Shown piece after piece: positions 19,952 through 48,180 of a stretch of DNA of 64,000 nucleotides. Below the pieces are notes generated by a model. That model saw only the letters and a program-made list of their open reading frames with translations, did no database searches and was not told the DNA's origin. The stretch lies in assembly GCF_000374645.1 (NCBI RefSeq), contig NZ_KB894800.1, positions 230,589 through 294,588 on the forward strand. Reading direction: 5' to 3'. A program made the translations under genes and the position numbers. How positions within the stretch are numbered: the first letter of the stretch is position 1; each line of letters starts with the position of its first letter. This stretch comes from Arhodomonas aquaeolei DSM 8974. Lineage in GTDB: Bacteria; Pseudomonadota; Gammaproteobacteria; Nitrococcales; Nitrococcaceae.

Positions 19952-20659
19952 TCAGCTCGTCGAGAACTTCGTGCCGGTGCGGTCCGCGGCGCGCAACAGG
20001 TGATGGTGGACCATGTGCTCGGCGAGCAGGGGGTCGCCGCTGTCGATCGCATCGATGAGCATCTCGTGCTCCGCCACGGCCTCGGGCAGACGAGCGAGTG
20101 CGTACAGGGGCAGCGTCTGGCTCTCCAGTACCAGCGGCTGGTAGCGCGCCAGCACGTCCCGCATGATGGCGTTGCCAGCGATACCGGCGATGCCCATGTG
20201 GAACTCGTAGTCGTGCTGCGCGGCATCGCTGAGCCGACGTGTCTCCATGCAGGCGTTCAGTCGCGCGTTTGCCTCCCGCAGCGCACGAATGTCCCCCGCC
20301 GTGGCCCGCCTGGCGGCGAGGCGGGCCGTCTGCGCCTCCAGGGCGAAACGAAGCTGGTAGACCTCGACGTAGGAAAAGCCCTGCCCGCCCTGTTCTCCCT
20401 GTGCGCTCCCGGCCGACAGTGTCCCGTGCCGGAATGTCGTATCACCGACGTAGACCCCGCGTCCGGGCTGGACGTCCACCACCCCCATGAAGGAGAGCGT
20501 GGCAAACGCCTCGCGAAGGGAGTTCCGGCTGACGCCGAGCTCATGCGCCAGCTCGCGCTGGGAGGGCATCCGGTCCCCGGCGGCCAGCCCCTCGCTGACG
20601 ATGTACTGCTGGATACGCCAGGCCGTCGTGTGGGTGACCGGTTTTCCTTCCGTCGCCAT
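19952..20659 (-). CDS. GntR-family (FadR subfamily) transcriptional regulator
   Basis: A 235-residue regulator. The N-terminal winged helix has the GntR signature (GDRMPSQRELAHELGVSRNS, then LREAFATL; about residues 27-55). The C-terminal all-helical FCD domain has likely metal/ligand residues (HDYEFHMGIAG, and HMVHHHLLRA near the end). The ATG at 20659 (MATEGKPVTH) is the natural start; in-frame sequence upstream does not resemble the family. It is divergent from the ABC/amidase operon and most likely represses it through the palindrome at 20827-20850, being released by the imported substrate. Confidence 0.92.
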   Translation of the reverse strand: MATEGKPVTHTTAWRIQQYIVSEGLAAGDRMPSQRELAHELGVSRNSLREAFATLSFMGVVDVQPGRGVYVGDTTFRHGTLSAGSAQGEQGGQGFSYVEVYQLRFALEAQTARLAARRATAGDIRALREANARLNACMETRRLSDAAQHDYEFHMGIAGIAGNAIMRDVLARYQPLVLESQTLPLYALARLPEAVAEHEMLIDAIDSGDPLLAEHMVHHHLLRAADRTGTKFSTS

Positions 20660-20790
20660 GACTACGCACCTTTTTCGCTCAGGGGCATCACCGCGGTGCA
20701 CGCGCACGCACCAAAAGTCACCCGACAACAGCCCACTATGCACCAACAAGTTACTTTTCTACCCAGTTTCTGGATTTTCAGTAATTTTTA

Positions 20791-20850
20791 TTGACGCTTC
20801 AAGCCCGCTCTGCTTCTTTTAACTTGTGTGGCAGGACCGGTCCTACCACA
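20791..20850 (+). promoter_or_regulatory. promoter region and 24-bp palindromic operator of the ABC/amidase operon
   Basis: TGTGGCAGGACC (20827-20838) and GGTCCTACCACA (20839-20850) form a palindrome with a single mismatched pair and no spacer. The centre AGGACCGGTCCT resembles FadR/GntR-type operators. A possible -35 (TTGACG, 20791-20796) lies upstream; the -10 is not clear (TTTTAA near 20817 has poor spacing). The operator ends 28 bp before the binding-protein ATG, a position suited to repression by the divergent regulator. Confidence 0.7.
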
Positions 20851-20878
20851 ACCGGTTAACTGGCTTCTGGAGGCCATC

Positions 20879-22108
20879 ATGTTCAAATTCAAGCACCTCG
20901 GTATGGGCGCTGCGCTGGCGGGCGCCGCCCTCGCACTGACGGGCACCGCCGCCGCGCAGGACAGCGGGCCTGTAAAGATTGGCGCCATCTTTTCTCAATC
21001 CCCGCCCGGATCCGTGGTTCAGGGAACCCAGGTGAAGGCCGGCCTGGAGATCGCCCGGGATATGCTCAATGAGCAGGGAGGCATCCTCGGCCGCAAGGTC
21101 GAGCTGGTGATGGAGGACGGCCAGGGATTGCCCGAGAAGGGGCGTTCCGCCGCCGAGAAGCTCATCACCAGGGACGGCGTGGTCGCGATCACCGGTGAGC
21201 ACCAGAGCTCGAACGTGCTTGCCGAGATCGAGGTCGCCAAGCGCTACAACATCCCCTACGTCAACACCAACGGCTGGTCCGACGCGATCCGCGAGAAGGG
21301 CTACCGGCAGGTCTTCAACCCCGCCAACTACAACACCCGGGTCTCCCAGGCCATGGCCTCCGTGCTCGCGGACATGGACGTCGACTCGGTGGTGACGTTC
21401 GCCGAGAACACCGACTACGGCATCGGCCAGGCGGAGCTGCTGGGCAAGTATCTCGCCGAGAAGGCACCGGACATCGATTTCCGCTACGAGACGCTGGACC
21501 GCCAGTCGAAGGACTTCATGCCCGCCGTGCTGCCGCTCAAGGCGAATCCGCCGGACGTGGTCGTGAACATCCTCCTGCCGCCGGCCGCCTACATCCTGAT
21601 GAACCAGCTCTACGAGCAGGGCGTCGCCCCGAGCGCGACCACCTGGCTATACGACGGCGCGGGCCTGGCGGACTATCCGGACTTCTGGGACAACGTCGGC
21701 GAGGCTGGCCGTACCCTGCTGGAGTTCGGCCTCTATCATCCGGCCATGTCGATGCCGCCGCTGGGCGAGAAGGTCAGCGAGGCGTACACCGAGCGTTACG
21801 GCAAGGAGCCGAACCGGCTCATCTTCCAGGCGGCCGACAGCCTGTTCCTGCTCGCCGAGGCGATGAACCGCGCCGGCACGACGGACGCCGACCCGGTCAT
21901 CGAGACCCTCCAGGGCATCGAGTACACCGGCACTCGGGGCACCATCACCTTCTCCGACGAGCCCGGCTACAGCTTCCAGCAGTGGCTGGAGGTCCCCTTC
22001 GTGACCTACCAGCTCACGGAAACGGGTCAGCCGGTCAGCGAGGCCCCGCTGGTGCAGAAGGCCGGGCAGTCGCTGGACCCCGACCTGCTGGTCCGCCCGG
22101 GCGACTGA
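20879..22108 (+). CDS. ABC transporter substrate-binding protein (Peripla_BP_6, amide/branched-chain amino acid type)
   Basis: A 409-residue periplasmic binding protein with a clear signal peptide (MFKFKHLGMGAALAGAALAL, cleaved after the AAA-Q junction near residue 26). Family traits are KIGAIFSQSPPGS at the mature start, the ligand-loop region RDGVVAITGEHQSS, and the type I fold throughout. It starts from an ATG with a TGGAGG site. First gene of an operon with an amidase, two permeases and two ATPases. Substrate unknown: the amidase suggests an amide, carbamoylated or acylated amine rather than plain leucine/valine. Confidence 0.93.
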   Translation: MFKFKHLGMGAALAGAALALTGTAAAQDSGPVKIGAIFSQSPPGSVVQGTQVKAGLEIARDMLNEQGGILGRKVELVMEDGQGLPEKGRSAAEKLITRDGVVAITGEHQSSNVLAEIEVAKRYNIPYVNTNGWSDAIREKGYRQVFNPANYNTRVSQAMASVLADMDVDSVVTFAENTDYGIGQAELLGKYLAEKAPDIDFRYETLDRQSKDFMPAVLPLKANPPDVVVNILLPPAAYILMNQLYEQGVAPSATTWLYDGAGLADYPDFWDNVGEAGRTLLEFGLYHPAMSMPPLGEKVSEAYTERYGKEPNRLIFQAADSLFLLAEAMNRAGTTDADPVIETLQGIEYTGTRGTITFSDEPGYSFQQWLEVPFVTYQLTETGQPVSEAPLVQKAGQSLDPDLLVRPGD

Positions 22109-22192
22109 TCCGAGCGAATCGTGTCGCACCCGCTGCGCCAGACCCGCTCCCGCCGGTATGGCGCAGCGCCTTCAACCCTGCCGGACACCACG

Positions 22193-23686
22193 ATGACCCC
22201 GAGCGAAGCACGTGACCGCTACCTGACCGCCCTCGCCGCCCTGCGCGGTTACCCGTACCCGGAACGCCACGAGCTGTGGGGGGCCCGTTTCGACGTCAAT
22301 CAGCCGGAGCTCGACGCCCTGGCGAACGCCCCGGATCCCTCCGCCCCTCCCTTCCACCCCGGCAGGCCCGCCGGCACGCCCCGCACGGGCATACCGGCCA
22401 CATCGCTCGCGCCGGCGCACACGGCGATTCAGCGGTTCGACACCGCTCTCGCCCGGGTGAGCGAACAGCGCCAGCTCAACGCCTTCATCGGCCTGTGCCC
22501 ACCGCCGGTCTCCCCCGTCAGCGGCCCCCTGAGCGGCATGCTCGTGGGCATCAAGGACATCATCAGCGTACGCGACATGCCCCGTACGGCCGGCAGTCTC
22601 GCCCTGACGAGCGAGCCTGCGGCCGAAGACGCCCCCTGTGTCGCCCGGCTGCGCGAGGCAGGGGCACTGATCGTGGGCACGCTGAACATGCACGAGCTGG
22701 CCTACGGCATCACCAGCGTCAATCCCCACTACGGCACCGTGGTCAATCCGCGCGCGCCGGCGCGCATCGCCGGGGGCTCCAGCGGCGGCTCCGCAGCAGC
22801 GGTCGCCGCGGGCATCGTCGACACCGCACTGGGCACCGACACCGCGGGTTCCATCCGTATCCCCGCCGCATGCTGCGGGGTGGTCGGCTTCAAGCCGACC
22901 TACGGCGCGGTATCCACCGAGGGCGTTCTGCCACTGGGCTGGTCGCTCGACCACGTCGGGCCGATCACGCGTAACGTGGCGGACGCGGCGGCCATGTTCG
23001 ACGTCATGGCCGGGGGCCCGGCCGTCCCCACCGATGAGCCGGACGACCACCGCGGCTGGACGCTGGTACGGCCCGCGGACTTCTTCTTCGAGCGGCTCGC
23101 CCCTGCCGTGCGCGAGCGCCTGGAGCGGGTCCTCTCGCTGCTTCACAACCGCGGCATCGCAGTGGTGGAGCGCCCGCTGCCATTGCTCGACCACGCCGCG
23201 GGCGCCCAGTTCGCCACACTCTGCGTGGAGGCGACGCAGCAGCACATGCGGCTCATTGAACATCACCCCGAACGGCTCGGCGAGGATGTCCGCGTCCGCC
23301 TGGAGATCGGGCAGTTCATTCCCGGGGTCGACTACCAGCGCGCACAACGGCTGCGCGGCGAACTGGACATCGCCATGCACGCGGCACTGGAGCGGTGCGA
23401 TGCCCTTGTTACGCCCACGCTGCCGGTGCCGGCACCACCGGTGGGCGCCACCGCCGTCGAGGTGGCCGGCCGAAGCATGCCGGTCCACACCGCCGCCACC
23501 CGGTGTACCGCACCGTTCAACCTCACCGGCATGCCCGCGGTGACTCTGCCCTGCGGCACGGACGACTCCGGCGCGCCCATCGGCCTGCAGCTCGCGGGGC
23601 GGCGCGGCGAGGACGCCCGGCTACTGCACCTCGCCCTGGAGGTCGAGACGCTGATCGGGGAATTCGACACGGGGGGATGGAGCTGA
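22193..23686 (+). CDS. amidase signature family hydrolase
   Basis: A 497-residue amidase signature enzyme. Catalytic Lys is in GIKDIISV, and the Ser-cisSer-Lys triad's serines lie in the glycine-serine motif [15 protein letters not shown] followed by GTDTAGSIRIPAA. It lacks the GatA-specific flanking features and is unlike the gatA further on. Chosen start ATG 22193 (MTPSEARDRY); an in-frame ATG at 22121 is possible but adds a low-complexity Arg-rich stretch. It lies between the binding protein and the permeases, and its last bases overlap the next gene, so its substrate is probably what the transporter imports. Confidence 0.9.
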   Translation: MTPSEARDRYLTALAALRGYPYPERHELWGARFDVNQPELDALANAPDPSAPPFHPGRPAGTPRTGIPATSLAPAHTAIQRFDTALARVSEQRQLNAFIGLCPPPVSPVSGPLSGMLVGIKDIISVRDMPRTAGSLALTSEPAAEDAPCVARLREAGALIVGTLNMHELAYGITSVNPHYGTVVNPRAPARIAGGSSGGSAAAVAAGIVDTALGTDTAGSIRIPAACCGVVGFKPTYGAVSTEGVLPLGWSLDHVGPITRNVADAAAMFDVMAGGPAVPTDEPDDHRGWTLVRPADFFFERLAPAVRERLERVLSLLHNRGIAVVERPLPLLDHAAGAQFATLCVEATQQHMRLIEHHPERLGEDVRVRLEIGQFIPGVDYQRAQRLRGELDIAMHAALERCDALVTPTLPVPAPPVGATAVEVAGRSMPVHTAATRCTAPFNLTGMPAVTLPCGTDDSGAPIGLQLAGRRGEDARLLHLALEVETLIGEFDTGGWS

Positions 23687-24576
23687 TGCTTTACCTCGAT
23701 CTGACGGTCACGGGCCTGATGACCGGCGTGTTCTACGCGCTGATGGCCATCGGGCTGACCCTGATATTCGGGATCCTGCGGGTGGTGAATTTCGCCCACG
23801 GGGAGTTCTACATGGTCGGGGCCTACACCTACACCCTGCTCAGCACCGCCCTCGGCGTTCCCGTGTGGCTCACCCTGCCGGCAGCGGTGCTCGTCGGCGC
23901 GGCCCTCGGCTGGGTGACGGAGCGGACGCTGATGCGCCCGCTCTACGCGGGCTACTCCAGCTGGGGGCTGATGAAGGACGAGTACGCGATCATCGTCACC
24001 TTCGGGCTGTCGCTGCTGCTCATCAACCTCGTCGACAAGGTCATCGGCCCCTACCCCTACCGCGGCCCCGAGCTCATCGACACGGCACGCGTGCACCTCG
24101 GTCCGGTGATCGCCGACGGCCACCGGCTGATGGCCACCGGGCTCGGCGTGGCGGTGATCGCGGGCGTGTTCGCGTTCATGCGTTTCACCGTCGCCGGCAA
24201 GCAGGTACAGGCGGTCGCCCAGAACCGCCTCGGCGCCTCCCTCGCGGGGATCGACCCCGGCCGGGTGAGTGCCGCCGTGTTCGCCGCCTCGGGGGGACTG
24301 GCCGCGTTCGCCGGGGGGCTGCTCGCGCCGATCATCAACGCCTCCCCGGACGTCGGCGTATTCACCGCGGTGAAGTCCTACGTGGTCGTGGTGCTCGGCG
24401 GGATGGGCTCGGTCGCCGGCGCCGTGGTGGCCGGGCTGTTCCTGGGCGTCGCCGAGAGCTTTGGCGCCGTGTTCATCTCCTACGGCTACCGGGACACCTT
24501 CGGCCTGGTCATCCTCATCCTGGTTCTCATGTTCCGCCCCCAGGGGCTGTTCGGCGAAAAGGGCAGGAGCGTCTGA
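23686..24576 (+). CDS. livH: ABC transporter permease, LivH type
   Basis: A 296-residue inner-membrane permease of the branched-chain amino acid/amide family with about eight helices (GLMTGVFYALMAIGLTLIFG; VVNFAHGEFYMVGAY). The EAA-like loop is QAVAQNRLGASLAGIDPGRV. The ATG at 23686 overlaps the amidase stop by one base. An alternative ATG at 23677 adds three residues. It pairs with the LivM-type permease directly downstream. The symbol describes the family; the substrate may not be an amino acid. Confidence 0.92.
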   Translation: MLYLDLTVTGLMTGVFYALMAIGLTLIFGILRVVNFAHGEFYMVGAYTYTLLSTALGVPVWLTLPAAVLVGAALGWVTERTLMRPLYAGYSSWGLMKDEYAIIVTFGLSLLLINLVDKVIGPYPYRGPELIDTARVHLGPVIADGHRLMATGLGVAVIAGVFAFMRFTVAGKQVQAVAQNRLGASLAGIDPGRVSAAVFAASGGLAAFAGGLLAPIINASPDVGVFTAVKSYVVVVLGGMGSVAGAVVAGLFLGVAESFGAVFISYGYRDTFGLVILILVLMFRPQGLFGEKGRSV

Positions 24577-25538
24577 TGGGCAACTCGGAGCGCCGCCTGC
24601 GCGCGGAATTCCACGGCTCCCTCGTCATCCTGGCACTGGTCGCGGCCCTGCCGCTGGTCCTCACCAGCGTGTACTGGCAGGGCGTGGTCATCGTCAGCCT
24701 CTACTACGCCCTGCAGGCCATGGGCTGGAACCTGGTGACCGGCTACACCGGCCAGATGAACCTCGCGCCGGCGGCGTTCGCCATGGTCGGGGCCTACGGC
24801 GTGGGCCTGCTCAGCCATCACTGGGGGATATCGCCGTGGCTGGGGGTGCCGGTGGGCGTGGCCGCCGCTGCGGGCATCGGGCTGGTGCTGGGACGCATCG
24901 TGCTGCCCCTGCAGGGGGCCTACGTGGCCCTGACCACGCTGTCGTTCGCGGAGATCCTGCGGCTGGTGATCGGCAACTCGTATTCCGTCACCCGCGGCGA
25001 CCTGGGCCTGAACGTGCCCACGGTCTTCGACGGGCGCCTGCCCTACTACTACCTGATGCTCGCGGTGGTCGTGCTGGTGCAGATCGCGCTCTACGCACTG
25101 ATGCGCTCGCGCATGGGGCTGTTCCTCCAGGCGGTGCGCGACGACGAGGTCGCGGCGGCGAGCCGCGGGGTCTCCATCGTGTGGTGGAAGACGCTGGCCT
25201 TCGTGGTCAGCTCGGCGATCTGCGGGCTCGCCGGCACGCTCTACGCACCGTTCGCCGGGCTGATCAGCCCCGAGCTGGGGCTGATCCTCAATACCGGCCT
25301 GGTGGTAAGCATGGTGGTCATCGGCGGCATGGGCACGATGATCGGCCCCATCGTCGGCGCCCTGCTCGTCTACACCGCGGGCGAGATGCTGCGCGAGGTC
25401 GGCGACTACCACCTGATCGTCTTCGCGCTGCTCGTCATCGTCTTCGCCCGGTTTTTCCGCGGCGGCATCTGGGGACTGCTGCAGCTCGGCGCCGACCGGC
25501 TCCCGGGGCGGCGGGAGACCGGCGCGAGGGAGGGGTGA
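24576..25538 (+). CDS. livM: ABC transporter permease, LivM type
   Basis: A 320-residue permease, second half of the membrane channel. It shows the LivM hallmarks: WNLVTGYTGQMNLAPAAFAM near residues 50-70, the conserved loop AVRDDEVAAASRGV, and terminal helices ending FARFFRGGIWGLLQ. Its ATG overlaps the livH stop by one base. The C-terminal tail (about 20 charged residues) follows the last helix, as is normal for this family. Confidence 0.92.
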   Translation: MGNSERRLRAEFHGSLVILALVAALPLVLTSVYWQGVVIVSLYYALQAMGWNLVTGYTGQMNLAPAAFAMVGAYGVGLLSHHWGISPWLGVPVGVAAAAGIGLVLGRIVLPLQGAYVALTTLSFAEILRLVIGNSYSVTRGDLGLNVPTVFDGRLPYYYLMLAVVVLVQIALYALMRSRMGLFLQAVRDDEVAAASRGVSIVWWKTLAFVVSSAICGLAGTLYAPFAGLISPELGLILNTGLVVSMVVIGGMGTMIGPIVGALLVYTAGEMLREVGDYHLIVFALLVIVFARFFRGGIWGLLQLGADRLPGRRETGAREG

Positions 25539-25542
25539 ACGC

Positions 25543-26262
25543 ATGACGTTTCTGAAGGTAAAGGGACTGGAAAAGCGCTTCGGCGGACGGCACGCGGTGG
25601 ACTCGGTGCACTTCGACGTGGCGGCGGGGGAGCTGGTGGGCCTGATCGGACCCAACGGCTCGGGCAAGACTACCCTGCTCAACATGCTCAGCGGCCATCT
25701 GGCGCCGGACGGCGGCACGGTGACCCTGGAGGGGCGGGAGGTCACCCGGCTGCCGGTCCACCGGCGGGCCCGGGCAGGGATACTGCGCATGTTCCAGCTC
25801 ACCCGCGTCTTCGACCGGGTCAGCACGCTGGACAACCTGCTCGTCGCCGGGCGCGGCCTGGGCCTGAACGCGCGGGACGCCCTGACCCGGGCCCGCGCAC
25901 TGCTCGACGAGCTCTCCCTGTCACCGGTGGCCGCGCTCGACGCCGGCCGGCTCTCGGGCGGGCAGCGCAAGCTCCTGGAGTTCGGCACCTGCTTCATGGT
26001 GCCACCGCGCATCGCCCTGCTCGACGAGCCCTTCGCGGCCGTCCACCCGAGCATGCGCGAGATCATGGGCCGGTTCGTGCGGGAACGCCACGCCCTGGGA
26101 CAGACGTTCCTTCTGGTGAGTCACGACATGCCCGTCGTCCGTGAGATGTGCGAGCGCAGCGTGTGCATGAACGCGGGCTCGATCCTCGCCGACGGTAACA
26201 CGGAGGACGTCCTCAACGACCCGGCGGTGATCGAGGCCTACCTGGGCGGAGAAGCGGCATGA
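25543..26262 (+). CDS. livG: ABC transporter ATP-binding protein, LivG type
   Basis: A 239-residue ATPase. Walker A is GPNGSGKTT (about 37-45), the Q-loop region FQLTRVF follows, the ABC signature is LSGGQRKLLE, and Walker B is IALLDEPFA. The H-loop His is in LLVSHDM. It starts 4 bp after livM with a GAGGG site and overlaps livF by 4 bp. The second ATPase partner is LivF; both would energise the LivHM channel. Confidence 0.93.
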   Translation: MTFLKVKGLEKRFGGRHAVDSVHFDVAAGELVGLIGPNGSGKTTLLNMLSGHLAPDGGTVTLEGREVTRLPVHRRARAGILRMFQLTRVFDRVSTLDNLLVAGRGLGLNARDALTRARALLDELSLSPVAALDAGRLSGGQRKLLEFGTCFMVPPRIALLDEPFAAVHPSMREIMGRFVRERHALGQTFLLVSHDMPVVREMCERSVCMNAGSILADGNTEDVLNDPAVIEAYLGGEAA

Positions 26263-26987
26263 CGGCACTGTTGCAGATCGAGGACGTGACGGCGGGCTAC
26301 ACCTCGGATATCGACATCCTGCGCGGTGTCTCCGTGACGGTGCCCCCCGGGTCGATACGGGGGCTGATCGGGCTCAACGGCGCCGGCAAGTCCACCGTCA
26401 TGAAGACCGCCTGCGGCTTCCTCACCCCCCGCCGGGGCCGGGTCCGCTTCGACGGCGAGGAGATCACGGGCATTGCCACCCACCGCCTGCTCCGGCGCGG
26501 CATCAGCCTGATCCCGCAGGAGTCGAGCCTCTTCCCCCACCTCAGCGTCGAGGACAACCTCCGGCTGCCCCTGCGGGCCGCCCGCCGCGCGGGGCTGTCC
26601 AGCGACGACGCCCTGGAGCGCACCCTGGAGCGCTTCCCCGAGATCCACGGCAAGCTCCGCGCGGACGCCGGCTCGCTGAGCGGCGGCCAGCAGAAGATGG
26701 TGGAGTTCGCCAAGGCCCACATGCTCCGGCCCCGGCTGTGCCTCATCGACGAGCCGAGCATCGGGCTCTCGCCCAAGATCGCCGGCGAGGTGTTCGGCTG
26801 GATACGGCAGTTCGCGGACGAGGGCATGGCGATACTGCTCGTCGACCACAACATCCGCAAGGTCATCGAGCTCTCGGACCACACCTACGTGCTGACCCTC
26901 GGCGAGATCACCGCCGAGGGGCCGCGCTCCCAGTTCGAAGGCGACATGCACGAGCAGGTCCGCGAGTGGCTCGGCCTCAACTTCTGA
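26259..26987 (+). CDS. livF: ABC transporter ATP-binding protein, LivF type
   Basis: A 242-residue ATPase. Walker A is GLNGAGKST, Q-loop IPQESSLFPHLSVEDN, signature LSGGQQKMVEFAKA, Walker B LCLIDEPSIGL and H-loop LLVDHNI. The GEITAEGPRSQF ending is typical of LivF. It is last in the operon. A GC-rich hairpin follows at 26991, then the convergent L,D-transpeptidase-type gene. Confidence 0.93.
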   Translation: MTALLQIEDVTAGYTSDIDILRGVSVTVPPGSIRGLIGLNGAGKSTVMKTACGFLTPRRGRVRFDGEEITGIATHRLLRRGISLIPQESSLFPHLSVEDNLRLPLRAARRAGLSSDDALERTLERFPEIHGKLRADAGSLSGGQQKMVEFAKAHMLRPRLCLIDEPSIGLSPKIAGEVFGWIRQFADEGMAILLVDHNIRKVIELSDHTYVLTLGEITAEGPRSQFEGDMHEQVREWLGLNF

Positions 26988-29956: not shown

Positions 29957-31411
29957 ATGCACGAATACAGCATTACCGAGCTCGCCGCCGGCCTCGAGCG
30001 CGGCGACTTCACCAGCCGCGAGCTCACGGGGCACTATCTGGAGCGCATCCGCCGGCACGACGGCACGCTGAACAGCTTCATCAGCGTCACCGAGGAGGCC
30101 GCGCTGGCCCGGGCGGAGGCCGCGGACGCACGCCGCGCCCGCGGCGAGGCCGGGCCGCTGACCGGCGTGCCCATCGCGCACAAGGACATCTTCTGCACCG
30201 ACGGTGTGCGCACGAGCTGCGGCAGCCGGATGCTCGACAACTTCATCGCGCCCTACGACGCCCACGTGGTCGAGCGCCTCGACGAGGCCGGCGCGGTGAT
30301 GCTCGGCAAGACCAACATGGACGAGTTCGCCATGGGCTCGTCCAACGAAACCAGCTTCTACGGCCCGGTGAGCAACCCCTGGGACACCGCCGCGGTGCCC
30401 GGCGGCTCGTCCGGCGGCTCCGCCGCCGCGGTGGCCGCACGGCTGACCCCGGCGGCCACCGGCACGGACACCGGCGGCTCCATCCGCCAGCCGGCGTCCA
30501 TGTGCGGCATCAGCGGGCTCAAGCCCACCTACGGCCGGGTCTCGCGCTACGGCATGGTCGCCTTCGCCTCCAGCCTCGACCAGGGCGGCCCCATGGCCCG
30601 CTCCGCCGAGGACCTGGCCGTGCTGCTCGGCGCCATGGCCGGCTTCGATCACCGCGACTCCACCAGCGTGCAGCGCGAGGTCCCCGACTACCGCGCCACC
30701 CTCGGCGACGACATCCGCGGCCTGCGCATCGGCCTGCCGGCGGAATACTTCGGCGAGGGCCTCGACGCGGGCGTGCGCGCCGCCATCGACGAGGCGGTCG
30801 CCGCGCTCCGTGCCGAGGGCGCCGAGATCACCGAGGTTTCACTGCCCAACACCCACCTCGCGGTGCCGGTGTACTACGTCATCGCCCCGGCGGAGGCCTC
30901 CTCCAATCTCTCGCGCTTCGACGGCGTGCGCTTCGGCTACCGCTGCGAGGACCCACGCGGGCTCGAGGACCTCTACACCCGCAGCCGCGGCGAGGGTTTC
31001 GGCGACGAGGTCAAGCGCCGCATCATGGTCGGCACCTACGCCCTGTCGGCGGGCTACTACGATGCCTACTACCTCAAGGCGCAGCAGGTCCGGCGCATGA
31101 TCCGCGACGACTTCACCCGCGCGTTCGAGGACGTGGACGTGATCCTCGGCCCGGTGGCGCCGACCCCGGCGTTCGACATCGGCGAGAAGGCCGACGACCC
31201 GGTACAGATGTATCTCTCCGACATCTACACCCTGGCGGTGAACCTCGCCGGCCTGCCCGGGCTGTCGGTGCCCGCCGGCTTCGCCAACGGCCGCCCGGTG
31301 GGCATGCAGCTCATCGGCAACTACTTCGACGAGGCGCGGCTGCTCAACGTCGGCCACCGCTTCCAGCAGGCCACCGACTGGCACACCCGCGCCCCCGGCG
31401 ATTTCGCCTGA
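29957..31411 (+). CDS. gatA: Asp-tRNA(Asn)/Glu-tRNA(Gln) amidotransferase subunit A
   Basis: A 484-residue amidase-signature glutaminase subunit that produces ammonia for amidation of misacylated tRNA. The catalytic Lys is in [14 protein letters not shown], and the Ser-cisSer pair in [16 protein letters not shown] followed by [13 protein letters not shown]. The GatA-specific [20 protein letters not shown] and [14 protein letters not shown] are present. It starts 28 bp after gatC. A long perfect GC stem lies between gatA and gatB (31425-31447). The cluster implies that this organism makes Gln-tRNA and/or Asn-tRNA by the indirect route. Confidence 0.97.
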
Positions 31412-43163: not shown

Positions 43164-44009
43164 GTGGCCGTTTACGCAATCGGCGACATACAGGGCTGCT
43201 ACGACGCGCTGCAACGGCTGCTCGAACGGATCCGCTTCGATCCGGCGGCGGACCGCCTGTGGTTCACCGGCGATCTGGTCAACCGCGGACCGCAGTCACT
43301 GCAGACCCTGCGCCTCGTGCGCGGGCTCGGTTCGTCTGCGGTGACGGTGCTCGGTAACCACGACATCCACCTCCTCGGTATCGCCGCCGGGTTCGCCCGC
43401 GCCAAACGCACGGACACGGTCACCGAAATCATCGAGGCCGAGGACGGCGAGGAGCTGCTCGAATGGCTGCGGCGCTGCCCGCTGCTGCACGAGTCGGCGG
43501 AATTCCCGGGCCGGGTGCTGGTGCATGCCGGCCTCTCCCCCGCCTGGAGCCTGGAGGAGGCCCGGGCGGCCGCCCGCGAGGTGGAGGCGGTGCTCGGCGG
43601 CGACGATCACCGGGCGTTCCTGCGCCATCTCTACGGCAACCGCCCCGACCGCTGGGACCCCGCCCTCGAGGGCTGGGAACGCCTGCGCTACATCACCAAC
43701 GCCCTGACCCGGATGCGCTTCTGCAGCACCGATGGCCGGCTGCTGCTGGACTACAAGGGCTCGCCGGCACAGGCCCCGCGGGGATACTACCCCTGGTTCC
43801 GGGTTCCTCACCGGGCTCTCGACAAGGGCGGGCTGCAGGTGGTCTTCGGCCACTGGTCGACATTGGGACTGATCTCGGACGCCCGCGTGCTGTCGCTGGA
43901 TACGGGCTGCCTGTGGGGTGGCTCCCTCACCGCGGCACGGCTCGACGACGGCGACGCGATAACCGCCGTCGCCTGCGAGGCCGCGCTGCAGCCCGGCCCC
44001 GGCCGCTGA
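43164..44009 (+). CDS. apaH: symmetrical bis(5'-nucleosyl)-tetraphosphatase
   Basis: A 281-residue metallophosphoesterase that cleaves Ap4A to two ADP, and also removes Np4 caps from RNA. Metal-binding motifs are all visible: GDIQGCYDALQ, FTGDLVNRGPQS, LGNHDIHLL, VHAGLSPAW and GHWSTLG. GTG start at 43164 with an excellent GAGGAGG site. apaG, its usual upstream partner, is not in the window. Confidence 0.95.
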   Translation: MAVYAIGDIQGCYDALQRLLERIRFDPAADRLWFTGDLVNRGPQSLQTLRLVRGLGSSAVTVLGNHDIHLLGIAAGFARAKRTDTVTEIIEAEDGEELLEWLRRCPLLHESAEFPGRVLVHAGLSPAWSLEEARAAAREVEAVLGGDDHRAFLRHLYGNRPDRWDPALEGWERLRYITNALTRMRFCSTDGRLLLDYKGSPAQAPRGYYPWFRVPHRALDKGGLQVVFGHWSTLGLISDARVLSLDTGCLWGGSLTAARLDDGDAITAVACEAALQPGPGR

Positions 44010-44053
44010 GACCGCGACCGGCCGGGGGTTGCATCCGGGGGGGCATTCCTGCC

Positions 44054-44079
44054 TATACTCGCGCTGGGTGGTCAGACCA
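44054..44079 (+). promoter_or_regulatory. TRAP operon promoter with GntR-type operator
   Basis: TATACT (44054-44059) is a good -10; TTGCAT (44029-44034) could be the -35 but with 19-bp spacing. Ten bases downstream lies TGGTC-A-GACCA (44069-44079), a perfect palindrome matching the FadR/VanR-type GntR consensus. It covers the expected start site, so binding would block transcription. No gene for such a regulator is adjacent; the regulator at 19952 has a different operator next to it. Confidence 0.6.
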
Positions 44080-44172
44080 AAACAAGCATCCGCCAAGATG
44101 CCCTGACCCGTAACGAACCGGGGAGCGCGGCAGACGACACAAAGCCGCGCGGCCGTGGACCGGAGGGGAGCC

Positions 44173-44319
44173 ATGACGACAACCACTGGCACGCCCATGC
44201 GCAGCGCGACCGTGGCAGGTCTCCCGTCCCTGTCTTCCCCGCCGTTCCCATCAATGTCCGGATACCCGGTATCCACCGGGCCGGCATATCCGCGGCACAA
44301 CCGCGTGTATGCACCATAA
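44173..44319 (+). CDS. possible 48-residue leader peptide upstream of the TRAP operon
   Basis: An ATG frame (MTTTTGTPMRSATVAGLPSL, ending NRVYAP, stop TAA) has a strong GGAGGGGAG ribosome site, five to six bases ahead. It is rich in Ser, Pro and Thr, without membrane segments or recognisable domains. It sits between the promoter/operator (44054-44079) and dctP (44399), so it would be in the leader of that mRNA. The ribosome site argues for translation; the composition does not argue for a folded protein. Confidence 0.35.
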   Translation: MTTTTGTPMRSATVAGLPSLSSPPFPSMSGYPVSTGPAYPRHNRVYAP

Positions 44320-44398
44320 TCGGAGTGAAAAAACGACTCCAAAACCCTGCAAGGCGCCCCGGCGCAAGCAGTTCAGCGCACTTTACAGGAGGCAGAGT

Positions 44399-45505
44399 AT
44401 GAAGTTCCCTTCCGGTATCACCCGTATCGCGGCGGCGGCTGTCGTCGGCGGTGCGATGACCCTCGGAGCGGTCGCGAACACGGCGCAGGCCCAGGACAGC
44501 GTGCGCTGGCGCATGCCGATTGCCTTCCCGTCGACCCTCCCGGGCCTGGCGTCGCCCGCACCCTGGGTCGCAAAACGGCTTAACGAAATCAGCGACGGCA
44601 GCATCCAGATCCGCGTCTCGGAGCCGGGCAAGATCGTGCCGCCCTTCGACATCCTCGACGCGGTCAGCGACGGCAAGGTCTCCGCGGGCTACACCTGGGT
44701 CGGCTACGACCAGGGCAAGGTCCCGGCCATTCCGCTGTTCGCGGCCGTCCCCTTCGGCATGAAGCCGTGGGCGTTCATGGGCTGGTACTACTTCGACGAG
44801 GGACACAACCTCGTCCAGGAGGTCTACGCGAACGCGGGCTACAACGTGCACGCCGAGCTGTGCGGCATTATCGGGCCAGAGACGGCGGGCTGGTACCGCG
44901 AGCCCATCGAGAGCCTGGATGACTACAAGGGCCTGAAGATCCGCTTCGCGGGCCTCGGCGGCCGGGTGCTCGAGAAGCTGGGCGCCTCGGTCACCATGAT
45001 GCCCGGCGGCGAACTGTTCCAGGCCCTGGAGACCGGCACCATCGACGCGACCGAGTTCTCGCTGCCGATCATCGACCAGATCCTCGGCTTCAACAAGGTC
45101 GTGAAGTACAACCTCTTCCCGGGCTGGCACCAGCAGTTCACCGCCCAGTACATGCTGATCAACAAGGATGACTGGAACGCACTCGGCGAAAACCAGCGCT
45201 CGCAGATCGACACGGCCTGCATGGCCGCGACGACTTACGCGCTCTCGGAGTCCGAGGCCAAGAACGGCAAGGTGCTGATGGAGTTCCAGGACAAGGGCGT
45301 GCACACCGCGCAGATCCCGGAGCCGGTCCTCAAGGAGCTCCGCGCCACCACCCGCGAGGTCATGCAGGAAGAGGCCTCCAAGAACGAGGACTTCAAGCGG
45401 GTCTGGGAATCGCAGAAGGAGTTCATGAAGCAGTACAAGGTCTGGGGTGAGCGTGCCTACCTCAAGCCCGAGATGATGCTCGGGGGCGAGGAAGCCAACA
45501 ACTAA
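44399..45505 (+). CDS. dctP: TRAP transporter substrate-binding protein DctP
   Basis: A 368-residue periplasmic binding protein. Signal peptide about 1-32 (RIAAAAVVGGAMTLGAVANT, cleaved after AQA). The mature start VRWRMPIAFPSTLPG, the central GLKIRFAGLGGRVLEKLG (with the family's Arg that salt-bridges the substrate carboxylate) and GGELFQALETGTIDATEF are typical of the DctP fold. Starts from an ATG with AGGAGG. The family usually imports organic acids; this subgroup resembles those near mannitol/chloroaromatic-type clusters, and no firm substrate can be assigned. Confidence 0.93.
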   Translation: MKFPSGITRIAAAAVVGGAMTLGAVANTAQAQDSVRWRMPIAFPSTLPGLASPAPWVAKRLNEISDGSIQIRVSEPGKIVPPFDILDAVSDGKVSAGYTWVGYDQGKVPAIPLFAAVPFGMKPWAFMGWYYFDEGHNLVQEVYANAGYNVHAELCGIIGPETAGWYREPIESLDDYKGLKIRFAGLGGRVLEKLGASVTMMPGGELFQALETGTIDATEFSLPIIDQILGFNKVVKYNLFPGWHQQFTAQYMLINKDDWNALGENQRSQIDTACMAATTYALSESEAKNGKVLMEFQDKGVHTAQIPEPVLKELRATTREVMQEEASKNEDFKRVWESQKEFMKQYKVWGERAYLKPEMMLGGEEANN

Positions 45506-45566
45506 GTTCCCGGCCTTTCAGGGTTTTTCGGGAAAACAGCTTGGTGTGATGGAGAGATTGGTGACC

Positions 45567-46184
45567 ATGTCGAAAGACGATAGCAACGAGTCTGCACAGG
45601 GATTCCACATCCCCGAGGGGGAGCTGGACTTCCACCATCACACCGAGCTGCCCGACACCGCCGCTTCCCTCGCTCTCGATCGCACGATCGGGAGCGTGGG
45701 GAAGCTTATTTCCTGGCTGTGGCTGGCCGTCGTCGCCGTGATCCTGATCAGCGTTATCTCGCGCTACGTCTTCGGTCAGGGCTCGATCATGCTCGAGGAG
45801 CTGACCTGGCACATATACGGTATCGCCTGGCCAATCGGACTCGCCTACACCCTGGTCACCGACGACCATGTGCGCGTGGACGTCCTGCATGAGCGCATGG
45901 CACTGAAGACGCAGGCCTGGATCGAGGTCATCGGCCTGATCGTGCTGCTGCTGCCGTTTCTCGGGCTGGTCCTCTATTACAGCCTTCCCTACGCATACGA
46001 CTCCTTCATCCGCGGCGAGACCTCTCAGGCGCCGTCGGGTCTTCCCTATCGCTTCCTGCTGAAGTCGATAATCCCGTTATCCATGGTGCTGCTGGCTGTC
46101 GCCGTGATCGCGAGAATCAGTCGGTGCACGGCGCTACTGTTCGGCTTCCCGAAGCCGCGACGTCAAACCACGTCCGTTCACTAG
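45567..46184 (+). CDS. dctQ: TRAP transporter small permease DctQ
   Basis: A 205-residue, four-helix inner-membrane subunit. The N-terminus is longer than usual (about 55 mostly charged residues, with a HHH run) before the first helix, WLWLAVVAVILISVISRYVF. The family motif EELTWHIYGIAWPIGLAYTL and the VRVDVLHERM loop are present. The ATG at 45567 is preferred, with GGAGAGA upstream; a GTG (45546) and an ATG (45549) in frame have no ribosome site. It lies between dctP and dctM. Confidence 0.9.
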   Translation: MSKDDSNESAQGFHIPEGELDFHHHTELPDTAASLALDRTIGSVGKLISWLWLAVVAVILISVISRYVFGQGSIMLEELTWHIYGIAWPIGLAYTLVTDDHVRVDVLHERMALKTQAWIEVIGLIVLLLPFLGLVLYYSLPYAYDSFIRGETSQAPSGLPYRFLLKSIIPLSMVLLAVAVIARISRCTALLFGFPKPRRQTTSVH

Positions 46185-46241
46185 AGGGCCCCGGCGCCTT
46201 CCCCTGCCACCGAAATAACGGGCCGGAGCGAGAGAGTTACC

Positions 46242-47598
<1,357 letters not shown>

Positions 47599-47606
<8 letters not shown>

Positions 47607-48180
47607 CCGGCGAATCCGCGGCCGGCACGGGCACGCCGAGTGCCCGTGTCAGCCGCTCCCACTCGAAGTGCGGCCCCGGGTCGGTCTTGCGGCCCGGGGC
47701 CACGTGACAGTGCCCCACGATCCGCTCCCTGCGGATCCCGGGATAGTGGCCCATCAGCGTCTCCAGCAGCGGCAGCAGGCGGGTGTACTGCGCCTCGGTG
47801 TACGGCACCTCGTCCGTGCCCTCCAGCTCGATACCGATGGCGAAGTCGTTGCATTCCACCCGCCCGGCCAGCGCCGAGCGCCCCGCATGCCAGGCCCGGG
47901 CGTCCAGGCCGACGAACTGCACCAGCTCGCCGTCACGGCGGATGAGCAGGTGCGAGGAAACCCGCAGGTCGGCGACCTCCGCGAAAAACGGGTGCGCCGC
48001 CGGGTCGAGCCGGTTGGTGAACAGCCGCTCGATGGCGTCGCCGCCGAAATCCCCGGGCGGCAGGCTGATCCCGTGCAGCACAATGGCGTCGACCGCCGTC
48101 CCCACGGGGCGCTCGTTGTGGTTCGGTGACGGGCACCAGCGCGCCGAGGCCAGCCAGCCCGTGTCGTCAACCCAGTCCAT
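47599..48180 (-). CDS. ampD: 1,6-anhydro-N-acetylmuramyl-L-alanine amidase AmpD
   Basis: A 193-residue cytoplasmic zinc amidase that trims recycled anhydro-muropeptides. Zinc ligands by homology with Citrobacter AmpD: His36 (IVLHGISLP), His157 (VGHCHVAPG) and Asp167 ([11 protein letters not shown]). There is no signal peptide, which separates it from AmiD-type enzymes. The ATG at 48180 has GGGAGAG upstream. Its product (anhMurNAc) could feed the AnmK/AmgK/MurU route represented by amgK-murU elsewhere in this window. Confidence 0.95.

Follow-up and report, generated by a model that had tools for sequence, protein, structure and literature searches.

The question raised by the locus at positions 19952-26987 of a 64,000-nucleotide (nt) stretch of Arhodomonas aquaeolei DSM 8974 (contig NZ_KB894800.1; the whole stretch is referred to as the window) is which compound is taken up by a Liv/HAAT-type ATP-binding cassette (ABC) importer whose operon also encodes an amidase. 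The operon comprises six genes on the plus strand, with a gene for a GntR/FCD regulator divergent from them (Table 1), and its importer architecture, consisting of a type-I periplasmic binding protein (SBP), two Liv-type permeases and two ATPases, was confirmed, as was the overall gene content given in a first-pass annotation of the window. The locus is best read as a GntR-repressed system that takes up a small amide, ureide or lactam and hydrolyses it in the cytoplasm, probably as a source of nitrogen; this reading is given a probability of roughly 0.6. The secreted SBP would capture a small polar compound of this kind, one not recognised as an ordinary alpha-amino acid, and the two permeases and two ATPases would import it. 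The Ser-cisSer-Lys amidase would then hydrolyse the import in the cytoplasm, freeing ammonia and/or a usable acid or amine, with the divergent protein repressing the operon via the palindrome of the intergenic region and substrate or product lifting that repression. Amide uptake with immediate hydrolysis had been suggested earlier from gene order; it is now the best-supported account on comparative and binding-residue evidence beyond gene order, with the substrate and the immediacy of its hydrolysis being what we still infer.

Comparison of the SBP with Escherichia coli LivJ, to which (as to LivK) it is 18% identical, was made at S79, T102, Y202 and E226, which we take to be the ligand residues of LivJ. 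By alignment column one of the four is kept, S79 corresponding to S110, with T102 replaced by W133, Y202 by L233 and E226 by G262 (the register at E226 being uncertain by a few residues). Across eight aligned SBPs of the subfamily, the T102 column was found to be Trp in all eight (Thr in LivJ, LivK, 4n0q and 8wch), the Y202 column to be Tyr in none, and the E226 column to read G, G, A, C, T, A, D and S, thus 0/8 for Glu, with the Asp belonging to locus L015. Four loci were omitted from this alignment, L064 and L081 as they held stop codons and L061 and L090 as a precaution. These residues argue against recognition of an ordinary alpha-amino acid and do not name the ligand. The curated LivJ-type model NF011933 scored 48.4 bits against the SBP (cut-off 477) and the curated UrtA model 44.8 bits (cut-off 492.75).

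The AlphaFold2 model of the SBP had a mean pLDDT of 89.4, and its top match among solved structures (VIA) was 3td9 (Z 43.0, root-mean-square deviation (rmsd) 2.0, 346 aligned), followed by 8wch (SAR11_0655; Z 41.9, rmsd 2.4, 362 aligned), described by its entry title as bound to L-pyroglutamate, a lactam. The next VIA matches were binders of leucine, valine, hydroxybenzoate, GABA-receptor ligands and urea (Z 36.9-38.0), along with AmiC (Z 36.3-37.0). As VIA rows less than 1 Z apart were treated as ties, the predicted fold does not reveal the ligand.

Relatives of the SBP were located by a scan of genome contigs, for which 80 of 488 confirmed loci are listed and from which relatives may be missed. 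The nearest among the matches listed is L016, from a Rokubacteria metagenome-assembled genome (MAG; QHTB01000214.1), with identities of 58-60% for the SBP, 58% for permease 1 and 61% over the 123 residues remaining of permease 2, within which the contig stops. A Nitrospinota MAG identified by the phylum search (L117) has an SBP of 53-56% identity, its contig stopping within the SBP gene, and L118, of a genome from the class of Tranquillimonas, has one of 35-37%. In the tree, the window SBP was joined by L016 (100/99), then L117 (100/99) and then L118 (98/97), with LivJ and LivK placed apart. The homology comparison of the binding protein that had been called for earlier was thereby run, with the outcome that the nearest relatives found (58-60% and 53-56%) are uncharacterised MAG sequences and that the best solved structure shares 24-25% identity. 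Relatives above 60% identity with a branched-chain amino acid function, which had been named as evidence to the contrary, did not occur among the matches found.

The SBP was identified in 1/398 genomes of the phylum at 1e-75 and in 1/340 of the class at 1e-55, which in each case is the organism's own genome (0/397 and 0/339 others; the two draws may overlap). Further searches gave 1/95 in the Rokubacteria phylum set at 1e-60 (the genome of L016 itself), 3/385 in the class of Tranquillimonas at 1e-50 (Tranquillimonas among them) and 2/5 in a Tectomicrobia set at 1e-60, while plasmids yielded two records of 30-32% identity. In the phylum, class, Rokubacteria and Tranquillimonas-class searches the first-look candidates of many genomes were scored in part. 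Judged by these searches, the SBP is rare among the sampled genomes and its branch appears rare as well. A separate observation is that a relative of 30% identity in Alloalcanivorax (L023) lies near weak EutA-like and isochorismatase-like tblastn matches.

The main argument for an amide, ureide or lactam comes from the genes adjoining the sister SBPs, since unrelated families that cleave C-N bonds were found beside one SBP clade. In L016, the SBP gene is preceded at 146 nt, on its own strand, by a gene for a RutB-like hydrolase. This enzyme reached 318 bits with the RutB model (cut-off 378), so that it is not a called RutB, and 121 bits with the biuret hydrolase model (cut-off 370). An Asp/Glu/hydantoin racemase (PF01177, 198 bits) is encoded on the other strand. 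In L118, genes for an IclR regulator, hydantoinase A (PF01968, 264 bits) and hydantoinase B (PF02538, 587 bits) are divergent from the transporter, the nearest named models for HyuA and HyuB being caprolactamase CapA and CapB (451 and 260 bits against 1000). HyuA/B again adjoins the SBP in L130, at 95% identity to that of L118; an amidase located ~1 kb past HyuB there, on the other strand and with one gene between, was not counted as linked. Three unrelated families (amidase, RutB-like and hydantoinase A+B) therefore pair with one small supported SBP clade, and these families typically cleave amide, ureide or lactam bonds. For background, five queries (amidase, RutB-like, racemase, HyuA and HyuB; tblastn, E<=1e-4) matched 6/80 of the listed scan loci (L016, L019, L020, L023, L034 and L090), with the amidase alone matching 3/80 listed. 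ORF (open reading frame) reading alone gave nothing usable for the other distant SBPs L119, L120 and L121.

Several points weigh against this interpretation. The neighbour argument is weak in that its informative loci are few, the clade in question being tiny (the window, L016, L118 and its near-copy L130), and no amidase lies by the transporter in L016 or L118, meaning that an SBP-amidase pair of such kind has been seen once. In the 2.3 kb remaining of L117, the three ORFs tested are an epimerase, a PNPOx-type gene and a gamma-glutamyltranspeptidase, with no C-N hydrolase of these families. The amidase clusters of Rhodobacterales are just 31-34% (SBP) and 32-36% (amidase) identical, and amidase-signature enzymes accept very diverse substrates. 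Concerning the SBP, binders of leucine, valine, alanine/GABA-receptor ligands, hydroxybenzoate and urea are all within a few Z of the top match. The loop at E226 differs in length by five residues, so that the register may shift by a few residues, and an Asp lies three residues ahead of that column in the window (D259), L016, L117 and L118, which, going by the alignment, could replace the Glu in its role. Lastly, 8wch, which is titled as lactam-bound, differs from the window SBP in retaining Thr at the T102 column and Tyr at the Y202 column; at the E226 column it has Ala.

The hydrolase of the operon was assigned to the amidase signature family by its PF01425 score and by K121, S196 and S220, presumably the Lys-cisSer-Ser triad of the family, which were identical in 4/4 aligned rows. 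No named subfamily was indicated (indoleacetamide hydrolase, AtzE, GatA, allophanate hydrolase and others), as the best 25 of 26 models were below cut-off, the top one reaching 295.8 of 532. The AlphaFold2 model of the amidase (4 rows) was unusable, at a mean pLDDT of 45.2. With the organism's own genome counted, relatives of the amidase were found in 3/23 genomes of the family at 1e-60 and 3/369 of the class at 1e-85, with none identified in the plasmid search at 1e-60 or among viral contigs.

Two features of this protein were observed in addition. Its nucleophile loop (residues 216-220) reads DTAGS, with DTGGS being found in 12 readable relatives (L002, L003, L010-L012, L019, L020, L097, L098, L104, L106 and L107), DGGGS in L005, and Ala at that position in none of the relatives with a readable motif; the Gly-to-Ala change would adjoin the presumed oxyanion hole. 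The N-terminus (window 22193-22520) carries ~75 extra residues; for residues 1-112, hmmscan returned neither a Pfam match at E<=10 nor an NCBIfam match at E<=0.1. Among the amidase matches listed from other genomes, none spans residues 1-71. A GatC/AtzG-like N-terminal domain had been considered, residues 36-60 resembling the tail of GatC, and was dropped for lack of any hmmscan match for residues 1-112.

Amide hydrolases encoded beside importers have been described. Excerpts of PMC10781810 report fmdCABDEF of Methylophilus methylotrophus, with an amide hydrolase beside a binding-protein-dependent importer; by that description alone, that system differs from the window in the family of its enzyme, a formamidase, and in having a porin and a putative positive regulator, whereas the window operon has an amidase-signature hydrolase, a GntR/FCD regulator and no porin. 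Likewise, excerpts of PMC13209695 report amiE-fmdA-fmdB-urtABCDE on the chromosome of Pseudomonas veronii, where a urea-type ABC transporter was suggested to take up formamide. Both that cluster and the window pair an amide hydrolase with an ABC transporter; however, the former is UrtABCDE, and the UrtA, UrtB, UrtD and UrtE models are all below cut-off in the window. In P. jessenii, growth on caprolactam induced several binding or other proteins that included one of the branched-chain binding type, according to excerpts of PMC6061476. The operon is similar in its presumed working to the fmdCABDEF and urt/amiE precedents, yet is not assigned to any, because its SBP, permease 1 and ATPases are below the urea cut-offs and its hydrolase is of another family. 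The earlier statement that no named system explains the locus was overstated in view of such precedents. Among the literature listings, no paper was recognised as treating this SBP clade.

Further comparisons are provided by two sets of loci. L016 is similar to the window in its SBP, permease 1 and partial permease 2. It differs in that its hydrolase is RutB-like, of the isochorismatase family, and encoded upstream, whereas the window has its amidase between SBP and permease, and in that no GntR gene is among its listed ORFs. The Rhodobacterales clusters (plasmid of Sulfitobacter OXR-159, L014; Tranquillimonas, L019; and L020) share an SBP, two permeases, two ATPases and an amidase with the window, but their amidase is transcribed opposite to the transporter genes and their regulator is of another type. 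On the Sulfitobacter plasmid (L014, 5343-15380), the SBP, Liv-type ABC and amidase genes were observed adjoining an aminotransferase gene and a gene of the N-acyl homoserine lactonase family. With LivJ/LivK-LivHMGF of E. coli, the window has the fold and subunit plan in common, while three of the four residues that we take to bind the ligand differ.

This likeness to Liv systems is what speaks for an importer of branched-chain or other ordinary alpha-amino acids that acquired an unrelated amidase by chance operon fusion: the Pfam families and gene order are Liv-like, binders of Leu/Val/Ile are among the fold and top solved matches, and the role of Glu could be taken by the Asp near the E226 column. 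Such an origin is nevertheless improbable, as the equivalents of T102, Y202 and E226 are all altered, the LivJ-type model is far below its cut-off, LivJ and LivK are far off in the tree, and other C-N hydrolases adjoin two sister SBPs; a plain branched-chain amino acid importer is held unlikely on ligand residues, model scores and tree. Similarly improbable is an importer of urea or short-chain aliphatic amides of the UrtABCDE/FmdDEF sort, with an amidase acting on acetamide- or formamide-like compounds. All NCBIfam models shown were below cut-off (for the amidase and ATPases, the best 25), and those of the urea transporter gave 180.1 bits for UrtB against permease 1 (cut-off 250.3), 168.9 bits for UrtD (cut-off 304.1) and 165.1 bits for UrtE against ATPase 2 (cut-off 285.8), upon which a urea importer was rejected. 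UrtB and UrtE were still the best models for permease 1 and ATPase 2, and the described clusters are similar (PMC10781810, PMC13209695), but the hydrolase is of PF01425, as opposed to the FmdA-AmdA (PF03069) or nitrilase groups in which formamidases are placed in excerpts of PMC10781810.

It is also unlikely that lactams or hydantoins (pyroglutamate, hydantoin or caprolactam-like compounds) are imported, ring opening being followed or replaced by the action of the amidase. No ring-opening enzyme is encoded in the operon, although HyuA/HyuB and the Asp/Glu/hydantoin-type racemase adjoin sister SBPs and 8wch is titled as bound to L-pyroglutamate. Two Hydantoinase_B matches were identified in the organism's own genome, of which one (L127 3080-8675), on the contig of the operon at a distance of ~120 kb, is oxoprolinase-like and by reading directly follows two TRAP-like membrane genes. 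The other (L126 6230-13489) belongs to what by reading is an acetone carboxylase set, with HyuB-like, HyuA-like and small-subunit-like genes preceded by a regulator-like gene. 5-Oxoproline is therefore probably handled elsewhere in the genome. Returning to uptake and hydrolysis of an amide, ureide or lactam, the absence of a ring-opening enzyme from the operon and the siting of the oxoprolinase-like gene beside TRAP-like genes elsewhere lead to the tentative guess that the substrate is a linear ureide or primary amide. Given AguY, which according to the abstract of PMC12283126 removes a carbamoyl group and possibly evolved from GatA, it would be reasonable for a GatA-like fold to decarbamoylate such a substrate. 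A bolder suggestion, doubtful but worth stating, is that the SBP clade represents an undescribed Liv-type specificity class for ureide or lactam compounds, marked by W-S/A-D at LivJ T102, in which one transporter type is combined with exchangeable, unrelated C-N hydrolases (amidase-signature, RutB-like or hydantoinase A/B), the window amidase decarbamoylating an imported ureido compound.

The proposed operator, TGTGGCAGGACCGGTCCTACCACA, was correctly described by the first-pass annotation as a nearly perfect palindrome, with 11/12 pairs matching; it is situated inside the 219-nt divergent intergenic region and ends 28 nt ahead of the likely SBP ATG at 20879. No other 24-bp palindrome with <=1 mismatched pair occurs in the 64-kb window. 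Markov-simulated windows (n=20) contained a mean of 1.0 such palindrome each, and the existence of one in the window is unremarkable; its position is remarkable, because only 7/20000 simulated intergenic regions of matching composition contain one. The 22-base core pattern, with <=3 mismatches allowed, has a single location in the 3.96-Mb genome (an exact match, both strands). A control, the reversed core pattern, was matched twice on the forward strand and twice on the reverse. The single copy therefore indicates that there are no further sites and not that it occurs above chance. No sigma-70-like promoter was found in a search of 20600-21000. Further short inverted repeats were observed by the palindrome, namely CCGGTTAAC and AAAAGTCAC/GTTACTTTT, at window 20852-20863 and 20713-20758. 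The regulator contains both a GntR DNA-binding domain and an FCD effector domain. Its earlier description as a FadR-type repressor agrees with the latter domain and not with the FadR models, which scored 27-28 bits (cut-offs 189 and 249); for named GntR-family regulators (FadR, NanR, LldR and others), all 25 NCBIfam models listed were below cut-off, the best being NanR at 101.5 of 260.

Table 1. Features of the amidase-containing operon and its divergent regulator, in window coordinates
Feature	Coordinates	Strand	Basis
GntR-family regulator, 235 aa	19952..20659	-	winged-helix GntR PF00392 57 bits + FCD PF07729 86.5 bits
24-bp near-perfect palindrome, proposed operator	20827..20850	.	inverted-repeat pairing
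Liv/HAAT-type periplasmic binding protein (SBP), 409 aa	20879..22108	+	PF13458 (Peripla_BP_6) 156 bits
Amidase-signature hydrolase, 497 aa	22193..23686	+	PF01425 332.7 bits
Permease 1, inner membrane, LivH/UrtB type	23677..24576	+	PF02653 (BPD_transp_2) 136 bits
Permease 2, inner membrane, LivM/UrtC type	24576..25538	+	pairwise similarity only
ATPase 1, LivG type	25543..26262	+	PF00005 + PF12399
ATPase 2, LivF/UrtE type	26259..26987	+	PF00005

Alternative starts were identified for several genes. The regulator starts at the ATG at 20659, with a longer TTG form up to 20749 possible, the amidase has an alternative GTG start at 22121, and permease 1 may start at ATG 23677 or ATG 23686. A signal peptide was judged by eye to be present in the SBP and absent from the amidase. 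Permease 2 is 42% identical over 308 columns to an annotated branched-chain amino acid permease of Sulfitobacter (P0009). The coupling of all genes by 1-4 bp overlaps, as noted earlier, applies to the last part of the operon: permeases 1 and 2 overlap by 1 nt (24576), a 4-nt gap separates permease 2 from ATPase 1, the ATPase genes overlap by 4 nt, and the amidase overlaps permease 1 by 10 nt (ATG 23677) or 1 nt (ATG 23686). It does not extend to the SBP and amidase, between which no overlap exists, the gap from the SBP stop at 22108 being 84 nt to ATG 22193 or 12 nt to GTG 22121. Tight packing is thus a property of the last five genes, from the amidase through ATPase 2.

The GC content of the operon genes (0.665-0.718) was set against that of three flanking genes (0.684-0.722), with the divergent intergenic region at 0.516. 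By ORF reading, the left side of the operon holds a 16S rRNA methyltransferase-like gene, and the right side L,D-transpeptidase-like genes, gatA/gatB, an hslO-like gene, and lptD-like and surA/pdxA/rsmA-like genes; to our reading the operon is surrounded by housekeeping genes. The window has a second amidase-family gene, at 30149-31354, which by reading is gatA and does not belong to the present finding. In the segment of lowest GC in the window (0.652 at 44001-48000), the stretch 44309-47606 reads as a DctP/DctQ/DctM-like TRAP transporter.

Annotations very often assign Liv-type binding proteins to branched-chain amino acid transporters. Should amides, ureides or lactams be the ligands of the clade described here, such annotations would be mended by a simple residue signature, which would also indicate routes of organic-nitrogen uptake, and the adjoining enzyme genes would hint at the chemistry involved. 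The general plan of an amide hydrolase beside an importer is already known, the binding-protein branch being the new part, and the advance would be a modest one.

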